Shown piece by piece: positions 471 to 5,712 of a DNA stretch of 5,712 nucleotides (the first letter of the stretch is position 1; each line of letters begins with the position of its first letter). The stretch comes from a bacterium (lineage in GTDB: Bacteria; NPL-UPA2; JAUVJM01). The position numbers and the translations under genes were made by a program. The notes below the pieces were generated by a model. It searched no databases. It was not told the origin of the DNA and was given only the letters and a program-made list of their open reading frames with translations. The stretch spans positions 1 through 5,712 of the forward strand of contig JAUWGW010000034.1 in NCBI GenBank assembly GCA_030606215.1, read 5' to 3'.

Positions 471-1136
471 ATGGAAGATGTTAGAAGGATAAAACAGGAA
501 CTCGTCAGGTATGGTAAAAAGATTGTAGAGAAAGGATTAGTTGTCGGCCCCGGAGGAAACATCAGTGCCCGTTCAGGAGAGGTAGTCTATGTTTCTCCGA
601 CAGGCTATTCCCTGGAGGAGTTGAGTGAGGAAGATTATGTGGGAGTAAACCTCAAGACAGGGGAGATAGTTGAAGGACATCTGAGACCTACCTGTGAGGT
701 CTCCATGCATCTTGGCTGCTATTTGATAAGGGAAGATATTAGAGCTGTTGTCCATATCCATCCTCCCTTAGCTACCGGAGTGGTAAGTGCGGGGGTGAAG
801 CTCAAACCAATGTTTCCTGACTTTGTGGCATTCATTGGAGAAGTGCCGGTGGTAGACTATGTGATCCCCGCAGGGCAGGAGATAAGAAAAGCAGTAACGG
901 CAGTTATCAAGGAGCATAATGCGGCTCTTTTAGTGAATCATGGAGCAGTAACTGTAGGCGCTAATCTAAAAGAGGCTTTCTATCGGGCTCTTATTATAGA
1001 AGATGCGGCTCGCATTCTGCTTGCTTCCCTGACAGCAGGTAAACCTCGTTTTCTAACCGATGAGGAAATTGAGGGAATTAAAAACTTAGAGGCAGAAGAT
1101 TATCGGAAGGCGCTTCTTAGAGGAGAAATGCTATGA
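471..1136 (+). CDS. Class II aldolase (FucA/AraD-type), zinc-dependent sugar-phosphate aldolase or epimerase family
   Basis: The 221-aa product matches the class II aldolase/adducin family in length and motifs. It has the phosphate-binding loop GGNIS (residues 28-32) and SPTGY (42-46), an acidic residue in the position of the catalytic Glu (E76 in RPTCEVSMH), and the metal-binding histidines H95 and H97 (HIHPP) and H157 (NHG). These correspond to Glu73, His92, His94 and His155 of E. coli L-fuculose-phosphate aldolase. Such cytoplasmic enzymes cleave a ketose 1-phosphate to dihydroxyacetone phosphate and an aldehyde, or epimerise L-ribulose 5-phosphate. The substrate cannot be read from sequence. 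The start at 471 has a strong ribosome binding site six bases upstream. The stop overlaps the start of the isomerase-like gene by 4 nt (ATGA), indicating translational coupling. L-fuculose, L-rhamnulose, L-ribulose and 5-methylthioribulose phosphates are all possible substrates. Confidence 0.92.
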   Translation: MEDVRRIKQELVRYGKKIVEKGLVVGPGGNISARSGEVVYVSPTGYSLEELSEEDYVGVNLKTGEIVEGHLRPTCEVSMHLGCYLIREDIRAVVHIHPPLATGVVSAGVKLKPMFPDFVAFIGEVPVVDYVIPAGQEIRKAVTAVIKEHNAALLVNHGAVTVGANLKEAFYRALIIEDAARILLASLTAGKPRFLTDEEIEGIKNLEAEDYRKALLRGEML

Positions 1137-2257
1137 GAATAAGCAAGGAAAGTTTGGAAAAATTGGACAAAGAATATAATGGTTATTTAGATGGGGAGAG
1201 GCTGGATAAGTTTTTTGATGAATTTGAGATTAATTTTGCTGCAGGGCACTGGTGTGCCGGAGATTTTTGCGATAGATTTGCACCTCTCGGTTACAACAGT
1301 GATAACCCGGATTTCAGCAGCGATATTGTTAACCAGATAGAAAGAGTTGCTAAAGCCAGGATTAAAGGAATTGAGTTTCACGAGGCTCTCTTCATTGATA
1401 AGAGTTACAAAAAAGACCCATCTACTATTGAGAGAGTTAAAGAAGCTTTAACTAAATATCAAGTTGTTCCTACGAACATGAATACTAACCTTTTCTCCGA
1501 CCCGAAATGGAAACTTGGGGGGATTACCAATCCGAATAAAAATATTCGTGAAGATGCACTAAATGTCGCTCTTCAGGGAGTAGAGATAGCCAAAGAAATA
1601 GGATGCACAAGTGCAGCGCTCTGGCCAGGGTCAGACGGCTGGGACTATAATTTTGAGGTTAATTACGGGAAGTTACTTGATAGGTTTATTAAAGGTTGTA
1701 TTGCCATCAACAAGAAAGCTAAAGGGTTAGGGCTAAAGTTCGGAGTTGAGGCGAAACTTCATGAGCCAAGAGAAGGTAACATGATTATTGCTACCACCCA
1801 TAAGGCAGCCTTAGCAGCTAAGGCAGTTAATGAGGAATGCGAGGGAACTAATATGGGAGTAGCTATTGACTACGGTCATGAACAGATGTATGCGAACGAG
1901 CCAGCCGATAACCTTTACACTCTGAAGAGATTTGGAGTGCCTATAGTCAATTTCCATGTCAATAATGCTAAACTCCATAGTAATGATGAGGACAGGATTG
2001 CCGGCACTGGCGATATATGGAGGCTGGCTGACTTCTGCTATGCCGCAATAGATACAGATTACCAGGGCTGGTTTGGGGAGGACCAGTTCACCTACCGCAC
2101 CGACCCTGTCAAATCAATGGCTCTCTCCAGAGAGCTGTTTGGCAATGCGATGAAGAAGGCATTAGCAATCTACGCGGTCAAAGATAAGTTAGAAGAAGCT
2201 CAGTCAACAGGTGATGCCACTGCTACAATTGATGTGGTAAAAAAATATCTGATGTAA
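1133..2257 (+). CDS. Xylose isomerase-like TIM-barrel sugar isomerase, substrate unknown
   Basis: The 374-aa product aligns by eye along its length with xylose isomerases of the Streptomyces type. Shared blocks are FAAGHWCAGDF (35-45), TNLFSDPKWKLGG (118-130), the substrate-pocket Trp W164, GVEAKLHEPR (204-213, with ligands E206 and K208), GHEQM (248-252, H249) and DED (285-287). Several key positions differ. The metal ligand equivalent to Glu217 is Asp (D246), that equivalent to Asp245 is Asn (N277 in FHVNN), and the residue that supports the catalytic His (H83 here) in xylose isomerase is not conserved. It therefore probably interconverts an aldose and ketose in the cytoplasm with divalent metal, but the sugar may not be xylose. 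The start overlaps the aldolase stop by 4 nt, with an AGGAG-like site inside the aldolase end. The sugar kinase expected between such enzymes is absent here. Confidence 0.85.
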   Translation: MRISKESLEKLDKEYNGYLDGERLDKFFDEFEINFAAGHWCAGDFCDRFAPLGYNSDNPDFSSDIVNQIERVAKARIKGIEFHEALFIDKSYKKDPSTIERVKEALTKYQVVPTNMNTNLFSDPKWKLGGITNPNKNIREDALNVALQGVEIAKEIGCTSAALWPGSDGWDYNFEVNYGKLLDRFIKGCIAINKKAKGLGLKFGVEAKLHEPREGNMIIATTHKAALAAKAVNEECEGTNMGVAIDYGHEQMYANEPADNLYTLKRFGVPIVNFHVNNAKLHSNDEDRIAGTGDIWRLADFCYAAIDTDYQGWFGEDQFTYRTDPVKSMALSRELFGNAMKKALAIYAVKDKLEEAQSTGDATATIDVVKKYLM

Positions 2258-2259
2258 AA

Positions 2260-2275
2260 AAGGACTTCACTCCTT
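2260..2275 (-). terminator. Weak hairpin plus T run between convergent operons
   Basis: On the minus strand, AAGGA-GTGAAG-TCCTT forms a 5-bp stem and 6-nt loop. With the stem's last two T's this gives a run of six T (2261-2256). It overlaps the stop codon of the free-standing MetV gene and sits in the 9-bp gap between the two converging reading frames. The stem is short, so termination here would be weak, or Rho or the opposing transcription may finish the job. Confidence 0.3.
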
Positions 2276-2896
2276 CACTACAGGCTTTTCAGTGATAATC
2301 CGCCGGTAATCTCTCACAAGAACTTTCTTCTTCTTTAATATTTCCTCTTTCCCAATTTTCTTAAGTCTTTTATAAATCAACTCCCACCCACAATCCATCT
2401 CAGGGTTAACCTCGCATTTACCATTCTTTGCTCCACCACAGGGACCATTCAAAAGACCCTTTGAACAAGCCGTAATCGGGCAGATTCCGCCGGTATAATT
2501 GAGATAACATTCCCCACACTGCTGACAGTTAAAATCCTGCACAGATAAACCCTGGAATCCATTTAGATAGTAAGTATCACATCCAGCCAGAACCTTCTTT
2601 TCCTCAAGGAGCTTTGCTATCACCTGGACACCAACTCCGCAGGAGAAAACAACAACCCCTCCCGACCTTTCAATTTCCAAACTTACCTTTTCTATATAGA
2701 CTTTACTGAATTCCTCCCGGCATAAATAATCCACACGGGCAATACCAGTTATTTTATTCCGGTTATCTTCTATCAGTCTATCTACCTCTTCTTCCGGGAA
2801 ATAGACCTCCTTACAACCAAAACATTTAAAAACAAACGGCCGCAGGTCAAAGAAAGAAATTATCTCTTCTCTATCCTTTAGCTTTGTTATAAGCAT
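2267..2896 (-). CDS. metV: Free-standing MetV-like protein (methylene-tetrahydrofolate reductase C-terminal family)
   Basis: The 209-aa cysteine-rich protein belongs to the MetV family, the partner subunit of MetF in acetogens. It carries CFGC (residues 25-28), C59, SCGVGVQ (85-91, C86), C106, a ferredoxin-like CQQCGEC (124-130), GGICPITAC (136-144), the family signature GLLNGPCGGAKNGKCEV (147-163) and DCGWELIYKRL (168-178). Thirteen cysteines match those of the MetV domain in the upstream fusion gene, so the two are paralogs. Known MetV proteins carry metal centres and pass electrons to the flavoprotein MetF. The start at 2896 lies inside the end of the fusion gene (26-nt overlap), with only a weak AAAGG site upstream, so translation probably depends on reinitiation. 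No MetF gene is in the window. A role with a partner other than MetF is possible. Confidence 0.88.
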   Translation of the reverse strand: MLITKLKDREEIISFFDLRPFVFKCFGCKEVYFPEEEVDRLIEDNRNKITGIARVDYLCREEFSKVYIEKVSLEIERSGGVVVFSCGVGVQVIAKLLEEKKVLAGCDTYYLNGFQGLSVQDFNCQQCGECYLNYTGGICPITACSKGLLNGPCGGAKNGKCEVNPEMDCGWELIYKRLKKIGKEEILKKKKVLVRDYRRIITEKPVVKE

Positions 2897-4880
2897 ATCT
2901 TTTCGCCTTTTTAATAAAACTTAAAAGGTTGATTTTTGAAGAGCAGATGTAGTCACAGCAACCGCATTCAATACAATTTTCAACATTATATTTAAGGGCT
3001 TCCTCCCACATCTCTTTTTTCCCATAATAAGCATAATAGAGAGGATAGAGTTCCATCGGACATACCTCAACACATCTACCACATTTGATACATTCCCTCT
3101 CCTCTGAAACTTCCACAGGGTATTTTCTCAAAATAGTGAAACCCGTTGTTCCTTTTATAACAGCGGAATTCAAATCTTCCTGCAAAATACCCATCATCGG
3201 TCCACCCATCTTTATCTGATATTCCTCAAGAAACTTTTCTCTATTTCCATCAAAGCATAGATCTATAATATCTTCAATAGGCGTGCCTATCCTGATAAGG
3301 AAATTTCCCTTTCTTTTCAAACCTTCACCTGAAATGGTGATAACCCTTTGAATTAGAGGTAACCCCTCATATATAGCCTGGTAAATTGCAAGAATTGTGC
3401 TTACATTTAAAACCACAACCCCCACATCCAATGGCAAACCACCTTCAGGAACCTGCCGGTCCAATAACTTCTTTACCAGCATTTTTTCTGCGCCCTGAGG
3501 ATATTTAGTCTTTAAGGACGCAACGGTTACATCAGGAGAACTATCCAATCCCTTCAGTTTTCCAATTGCCCCAGATTTATTTTCCTCAACTCCAATAATA
3601 ATATTTTTAGCCTCCAGGATTTTCTGAACTATCTTGATGCCTTTTAAAATGCTATCGGGATGTTCAATCATCACTCTATTATCAGCGCTCAAATAAGGCT
3701 CACACTCACAACCATTAACAACAAGAGTATCAACCGGCTTGGGTGGACAAAGTTTTACATGAGTTGGAAACATAGCTCCACCCAAACCAACAATTCCTTT
3801 TTCTTTTAATAATTCCAGTAATGATTCCTTTGAAACATTTTCCAAATCTGAAACCGGTTCTACAGAAGAATCAACAGAGTTCAGACCGTCATTCTCAATA
3901 ATTATCGCAAGAGAAGGTTTAAGAAGAGATGGATGAATTCTTTCCTCTATCGAAAGTACTTTCCCACTGATACTGGCATGGATAGATGCAGAAATAAGGC
4001 CTGAGCTTTCTCCGATTTTCTGTCCCATCTTCACCATGGAGCCTGGCTTGACAAGAGAGTGAGCAGGGGAACCTGTATGCTGGGAGAGGAAAACAACTAC
4101 ATGTTCTGGTTCAGGGAAAGCTTCAATAGAAAGATTTTCCGTCTCTTCTTTTCTCTCTAAGGGATATAACCCCCCATAAAAATTCTGCATTCTCCGGGTC
4201 TGGGTAAATAGAGAAATTCTATTCCTCTCATCAACTTTAAATTTTCCATAATCCCTTAACTTAACCTCACCAGGAAGATTTCTTCCCTGTCCCTTAAGTC
4301 GTAGATATATCTTCTCCCAGGCGCAGTCAACCTGGGGGTCAACCTCGCATTTTCCATTTTTTGCACCGCCACATGGACCATTCAAGAGTCCCTTAGCACA
4401 ATCTATCACAGGACAAATACCACCTGTAATATTTAAATAACACTGCCCACAACCTGCGCACTTTTCTAAACCCAGAGATATCCCATGATAACCGGTAACA
4501 CTTGTTGCATTCCCACTCTGTGGTACGGAATCGCATAGAGTCAGAACCCTCTTCCCTTCTAACTCTTGTGCTACAAACTGAACTCCTATCCCACAAGATA
4601 TAACCCCGATTGTTTCAACATTGGAAATATCCAAATCAGTCAACTTTTTCTTGGTTAGATAGCTATTGCATAAGAAATCAAACTCAGCACAACCCGAAAT
4701 CTTTGAACGCTCCTCGCCAAGAAGTTCCAGTAATTTGTCGTATTCAGGTTCAGCTTCTATTTCAAATTCTTTATAACATTTCTTACAGGAGATTATAAAA
4801 ATACTGGAAACTTCTTTAAAGGTTTCCCTAATCTCTGATTCTGGTTTCAAACGGTATTTGGTATAATCGATTTCTGACAT
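2871..4880 (-). CDS. MetV-RnfC fusion: MetV-like domain joined to an RnfC-type NADH/FMN/Fe-S electron-input module
   Basis: Residues 1-215 of this 669-aa protein are a complete MetV domain: CKKC (32-35), C64, C71, SCGIGVQ (95-101), CAGCGQC (141-147), GGICPVIDC (153-161), NGPCGGAKNGKCEV (167-180) and DCAW (185-188). From about 230 to the end is a full RnfC-like unit. It comprises the N-terminal block GGLYPLERK (236-244) and QHTGSPA (267-273), the barrel region ending in IHASISGKV (300-308), the NADH/FMN-binding GLGGAMFP (365-372), NGCECEP (389-395), and two 4Fe-4S motifs, C597/C600/C603/C607 and C636/C639/C642/C646. No transmembrane segment is evident, so it is probably soluble. By analogy with A. 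woodii RnfC2-MetV-MetF, it should take electrons from NADH and pass them through Fe-S centres to a reductase. The start at 4880 has GAGGA seven bases upstream. The reading frame is continuous across the junction, so this is a real fusion unless the assembly is wrong. Confidence 0.9.
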   Translation of the reverse strand: MSEIDYTKYRLKPESEIRETFKEVSSIFIISCKKCYKEFEIEAEPEYDKLLELLGEERSKISGCAEFDFLCNSYLTKKKLTDLDISNVETIGVISCGIGVQFVAQELEGKRVLTLCDSVPQSGNATSVTGYHGISLGLEKCAGCGQCYLNITGGICPVIDCAKGLLNGPCGGAKNGKCEVDPQVDCAWEKIYLRLKGQGRNLPGEVKLRDYGKFKVDERNRISLFTQTRRMQNFYGGLYPLERKEETENLSIEAFPEPEHVVVFLSQHTGSPAHSLVKPGSMVKMGQKIGESSGLISASIHASISGKVLSIEERIHPSLLKPSLAIIIENDGLNSVDSSVEPVSDLENVSKESLLELLKEKGIVGLGGAMFPTHVKLCPPKPVDTLVVNGCECEPYLSADNRVMIEHPDSILKGIKIVQKILEAKNIIIGVEENKSGAIGKLKGLDSSPDVTVASLKTKYPQGAEKMLVKKLLDRQVPEGGLPLDVGVVVLNVSTILAIYQAIYEGLPLIQRVITISGEGLKRKGNFLIRIGTPIEDIIDLCFDGNREKFLEEYQIKMGGPMMGILQEDLNSAVIKGTTGFTILRKYPVEVSEERECIKCGRCVEVCPMELYPLYYAYYGKKEMWEEALKYNVENCIECGCCDYICSSKINLLSFIKKAKRYAYNKAKG

Positions 4881-4950: not shown

Positions 4951-5712
4951 TTATTCCTCTCCAACTAACCTCTTGCTTACTTCTTTTCTGGTTCGATGGG
5001 CGATATCATCTAAAATGCTATAGACTGTAGGCACAATTATTAGCGTCAAGAAAGTAGAGACTAATAATCCTCCAATAACTGCCAAAGCCATAGGAGACCT
5101 TAGTTCTGAACCTTCTGATCTACTTATAGCCATAGGAAACATCCCAAATATCGCAGTGGCTGCTGTTAATAAAACTGCTCTTAATTTAGTCACCCCTGCA
5201 TGAACAATGGCATCATCCTTATTCATCCCCCTGGCGCGGAGTTGATTGATATAATCTACAAGGACAATACCTGTATTTACCACAATCCCAGCCATAATGA
5301 TAACTCCTAAAAGTGATGGTAAAGAAAGGGTATTCCCGGTCAAGAATAGAATCAAAATCACACCTGCCAATCCGAGGGGGACAGTGAACATCACAGTAAG
5401 AGGATGCACCAATGATTCAAACTGGCTGGCCATGATCATATATACCAGAAAGACTGCCATGATAAAAGCAAAGCCCAGCGATAGGAAGGTCTCGCGCATA
5501 CGCTCTGCCTCACCTCCATATTCTATAAAATAACCAGGTGGAAGCTCTAGCTTCTTAAGCCTCAATTTTATATCGTTTAATACACTGCCTAAATCACGCC
5601 CGCTTATATTGGCTGTTACCGCGGCTTTTCTCTTCTGGTTTTCCCGATAAATTTTGACCGGACCTTTAGCTTCTATAACCCTTGCTATATCCTCTAAATG
5701 GTGCTGAGAACC
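4951..5712 (-). CDS. RND multidrug efflux transporter (HAE-1/AcrB-like), C-terminal part; N-terminus outside window
   Basis: The frame is open from the right edge to a TAA at 4953-4951, giving 253 residues, roughly the last quarter of a protein usually about 1,000-1,050 aa long. The first ~75 residues are the end of the second periplasmic loop (KIYRENQKRKAAVTANISG, then LPPGY). Five hydrophobic segments follow, at about 77-97, 104-126, 130-152, 175-197 and 206-231, matching helices 8-12 of the RND fold. Family motifs include ASQFESLVHPLTVM, GIVVNTGIVLVDYINQLR, KLRAVLLTAATAIFGMFP and VIGGLLVSTFLTLIIVP. Such inner-membrane proton antiporters export drugs, lipids or other amphiphiles, usually with a periplasmic adaptor and an outer-membrane channel. 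The Asn-containing helix 10 motif resembles SwrC/YerP-type members. A TTG at 5565 is internal, not a start. Confidence 0.93.
   Translation of the reverse strand, partial: GSQHHLEDIARVIEAKGPVKIYRENQKRKAAVTANISGRDLGSVLNDIKLRLKKLELPPGYFIEYGGEAERMRETFLSLGFAFIMAVFLVYMIMASQFESLVHPLTVMFTVPLGLAGVILILFLTGNTLSLPSLLGVIIMAGIVVNTGIVLVDYINQLRARGMNKDDAIVHAGVTKLRAVLLTAATAIFGMFPMAISRSEGSELRSPMALAVIGGLLVSTFLTLIIVPTVYSILDDIAHRTRKEVSKRLVGEE

Follow-up and report, generated by a model that had tools for sequence, protein, structure and literature searches.

The window (i.e., the whole 5,712-bp stretch of DNA that was analyzed) is an entire contig, C25 of a 1.52-Mb genome that is 93% complete and whose source assembly is incomplete (34 contigs). 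On its minus strand lie two adjacent genes, rnfC2 and metV, flanked on one side by a convergent gene pair and on the other by part of a transporter gene (Table 1). The convergent pair looks like a sugar catabolism pair. The start of metV lies within the 3' end of rnfC2 (26-bp overlap), and the rnfC2-metV order and the domain content of both genes can be read directly from the window. Two MetV domains are encoded, one fused to an RnfC module and one free, and the free MetV and the N-terminal domain of RnfC2 share 43% identity. The first-pass annotation had made no mention of the free MetV gene. Searching the PDB by sequence with the free MetV gave no match.

Table 1. Genes and domains of the window
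Feature	Position	Strand	Basis or remark
Class II aldolase gene and xylose/rhamnose-isomerase-like TIM-barrel gene	471-2257	+	4-bp overlap; convergent with rnfC2-metV
metV, free-standing MetV subunit (209 aa)	2267-2896	-	Own PF12225 match; next gene after rnfC2
rnfC2 (669 aa), N-terminal MetV domain and C-terminal RnfC module	2871-4880	-	ORF, Pfam, NCBIfam
RnfC module (residues 233-669): RnfC_N, FMN-binding Complex1_51K, SLBB, two 4Fe-4S motifs	2874-4184	-	
MetV-like domain of RnfC2 (residues 1-215)	4236-4880	-	Pfam; alignment
RND efflux transporter (ACR_tran), C-terminal part	4951-5712	-	Cut by contig end; upstream of rnfC2

Domains and integrity of the rnfC2 frame

The first-pass annotation had described one frame holding a MetV domain (residues 1 to 215) and a complete RnfC-like module with both 4Fe-4S motifs intact, and had proposed a domain search of the 669-aa protein and a listing of genomes with the same architecture. 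ORF, Pfam, and NCBIfam evidence confirmed the description. The gene is a single, uninterrupted ATG-to-stop frame of 669 codons, and all four families named for the search were matched by Pfam: PF12225 (MTHFR C-terminal/MetV; residues 125 to 200; E = 3e-27), RnfC_N (residues 233 to 332; E = 2e-29), Complex1_51K (residues 359 to 500; E = 2e-47), and a 4Fe-4S dicluster domain (residues 593 to 649). An SLBB domain was also matched. The NCBIfam rnfC model (TIGR01945) covers residues 233 to 662 with 493 bits (cutoff, 246). The two intact 4Fe-4S motifs are CIKCGRCVEVC (residues 597 to 607) and CIECGCCDYIC (residues 636 to 646).

Residues 232 to 663 align along the core of solved RnfC chains (PDB 7zc6, 9eri, and 8ahx). 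An AlphaFold2 model (33 homologues) was confident for the RnfC core and of low confidence for the Cys-rich MetV segment (residues 120 to 174); the cofactor geometry of this segment is therefore unreadable from the model.

Relatives and the two MetV clades

We compiled the 80 best loci among one-genome-per-species contigs, ranking them by their similarity to the entire fusion. The MetV domain and the RnfC module were encoded in a single frame in 79 of these 80 relatives, a similarity-ranked set that shows the architecture to be common and whose number is no survey of unfused genes. The exception (L082) is an RnfC-only gene. The records are named as Aerophobetes, Omnitrophota, Dehalococcoidia, Ratteibacteria, Elusimicrobia, Lachnospiraceae, Blautia, Alkalibacter, and others. 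A metV gene (in a few cases cut by the contig end) lies directly behind the fused gene in 76 of the 79 loci, and the contig ends first in the other three; metF, cut by the contig end in some loci, comes after metV wherever there is enough sequence (72 of 72). On one Elusimicrobia contig (L076, 2366 to 2852), metV is split into two short frames, which points to either a sequencing error or gene decay.

Twelve cysteines of the MetV-like domain never vary among the 80 fusion proteins in the alignment, and every aligned sequence long enough to include the two RnfC motifs keeps the eight cysteines of these motifs. In a tree of MetV domains from the fetched loci, which yielded no type II MetV, the fused and free domains formed separate clades (support, 0.96 to 0.995). 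This separation fits a single old duplication and fusion, inherited with the operon; the fused and free MetVs would then be an old duplicate pair passed down across Bacillota and several candidate phyla.

Assignment to the type III methylene-tetrahydrofolate reductase

The RnfC2 protein of Acetobacterium woodii carries an N-terminal, MetV-like extension of ~220 residues that is 59% similar to MetV (Poehlein 2012, PMC3315566) and 41% identical to it (PMC8515935); this domain is also described in PMC8760232. The 2012 study argued that the extension might connect RnfC2 to the reductase (Poehlein 2012, PMC3315566). The purified A. woodii complex contains RnfC2, MetF, and MetV at 1:1:1 with about 24 Fe, and it takes electrons directly from NADH (PMC8760232). 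Across MetV and RnfC2, the iron content fits six 4Fe-4S clusters, and six clusters fit two in MetV and four in the fused RnfC2, a split that is our own arithmetic.

The window and its genome hold the features of a type III RnfC2: a fused MetV domain with a complete RnfC, a Complex1_51K domain with two 4Fe-4S motifs, metV behind the gene, and a MetF in the genome. We therefore have high confidence that the gene is rnfC2 and encodes the subunit that oxidizes NADH in a type III methylene-tetrahydrofolate reductase (RnfC2-MetV-MetF). The likeness of this protein to A. woodii RnfC2 (Awo_c09290), i.e., an ~220-aa N-terminal MetV-like domain and a full RnfC module followed by metV, rests on descriptions in three papers. 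Blautia species are named examples of type III clusters (PMC8760232), and in Blautia and other Lachnospiraceae the rnfC2-metV-metF clusters have the fused frame (about 44 to 51% identity) with metV directly behind it, but most of their genes are separated by 1 bp, in contrast to the 26-bp overlap in the window, and metF is adjacent. The type II MetVF enzymes of Clostridium ljungdahlii and Eubacterium callanderi share the MetV and MetF subunits but lack RnfC2 and the NADH-binding module; none of the papers searched combined MetVF with cryo-EM. The RnfC of the Rnf complex (PDB 7zc6, 9eri, and 8ahx) shares the RnfC core, whereas it has no MetV domain and is a subunit of a membrane complex.

Beyond the domain content, the electron order is most likely that suggested by the enzyme purified from A. 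woodii. The RnfC module would exchange hydride or electrons with NAD(H) via FMN; its two 4Fe-4S clusters would relay the electrons to the fused MetV domain, from which they would reach first the free MetV and finally the flavin-bearing MetF, whose gene lies elsewhere in the genome. The general path of the first-pass annotation (NADH, FMN, two 4Fe-4S clusters, and MetV) is supported.

A different role was hypothesized by Poehlein et al. (2012), namely, that RnfC2 takes the place of RnfC in the membrane-bound Rnf complex, coupling the reductase directly to it. The RnfC module of the window is complete and aligns to solved RnfC chains, and the genome contains an RnfD/RnfE/NqrB-family gene. However, the same genome has its own ordinary RnfC (444 aa), and NADH is a direct electron donor of the purified A. 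woodii enzyme (PMC8760232), which makes this coupling improbable.

The first-pass annotation had instead contrasted the frame with A. woodii, where MetV and RnfC2 were said to be kept apart, and had left open whether the architecture was already described. Both domains do sit in one frame, but a novel single-chain fusion of otherwise separate subunits is very improbable: the MetV-like domain is already present in A. woodii RnfC2 (PMC3315566, PMC8760232, and PMC8515935), a separate metV follows in the window too, and the architecture is common to 79 relatives. The published description of RnfC2 refutes this reading, and the fused architecture, published in 2012 (PMC3315566), is already known. 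Because A. woodii RnfC2 has the MetV-like domain, the window gene is simply rnfC2 and not a fusion that replaces two subunits. The fusion had also been taken to support contact between MetV and RnfC2 in split systems; since RnfC2 as described is already a MetV-RnfC fusion, the contrast was false and the frame adds nothing on subunit contact in those supposedly split systems.

An assembly join or a missed stop linking two separate genes might be suspected in a contig from an incomplete 34-contig assembly, but the continuous frame, the even G+C content on either side of the MetV/RnfC junction (0.40 and 0.39), the same junction crossed in one frame on 79 independent contigs, and the grouping of the fused MetV domains in a supported clade of their own make it extremely unlikely, and as far as sequence can tell, it is excluded in favor of a real fused gene.

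Location of metF and direction of the reaction

A single MTHFR gene was found in the window genome. It lies on another contig (C13, 38595 to 39467; 291 aa), with a RACo-type corrinoid-activation gene on one side and a formate/nitrite transporter gene on the other, whereas in A. woodii metF follows metV. Compared with the MetFs encoded in the operons of the nearest loci, this MetF shows 60 to 67% identity in most cases and about 40% in the two Dehalococcoidia records. In the other genome of the same family (G001), metF (85% identical) is likewise off the metV contig and has other neighbors (contigs C1 and C146). Thus, neither genome of the family has metF linked to rnfC2-metV, unlike the 72 relatives described above, and because of this separation MetF is a presumed member of the complex. 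In four other genomes of the phylum, a MetV match lies near metF, and RnfC-type matches are unfused to MetV.

Neither CdhC/ACS nor a Prismane-family CODH was found in the window genome (93% complete), whereas A. woodii has ACS/CODH. The genome encodes formyl-THF synthetase, three MttB-family proteins (methyltransferases), and one methyl-THF:corrinoid methyltransferase-like protein. Given these methyltransferases and the formyl-THF synthetase, with no detectable ACS or CODH, we hypothesize that the complex may run toward oxidation of methyl-THF with NAD+ in this genome; the enzyme could equally provide methyl-THF for methionine synthesis. We tentatively consider, as a possible reading on the doubtful side, that this two-genome, one-family lineage has a type III reductase that is no longer tied to its metF operon or to the carbonyl branch of the Wood-Ljungdahl pathway and that would oxidize methyl groups from MttB-family demethylation toward formate with NAD+ as the acceptor. 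The modest additions of this analysis are the occurrence of the complex in a genome where neither ACS nor CODH was detected and the putative old pair of fused and free MetVs.

In G001, metV is followed by a Rex-like redox repressor gene (L110, 1327 to 1980), a name that rests on the domain pair PF02629 and PF06971. Its position behind metV suggests control by the NADH/NAD+ ratio.
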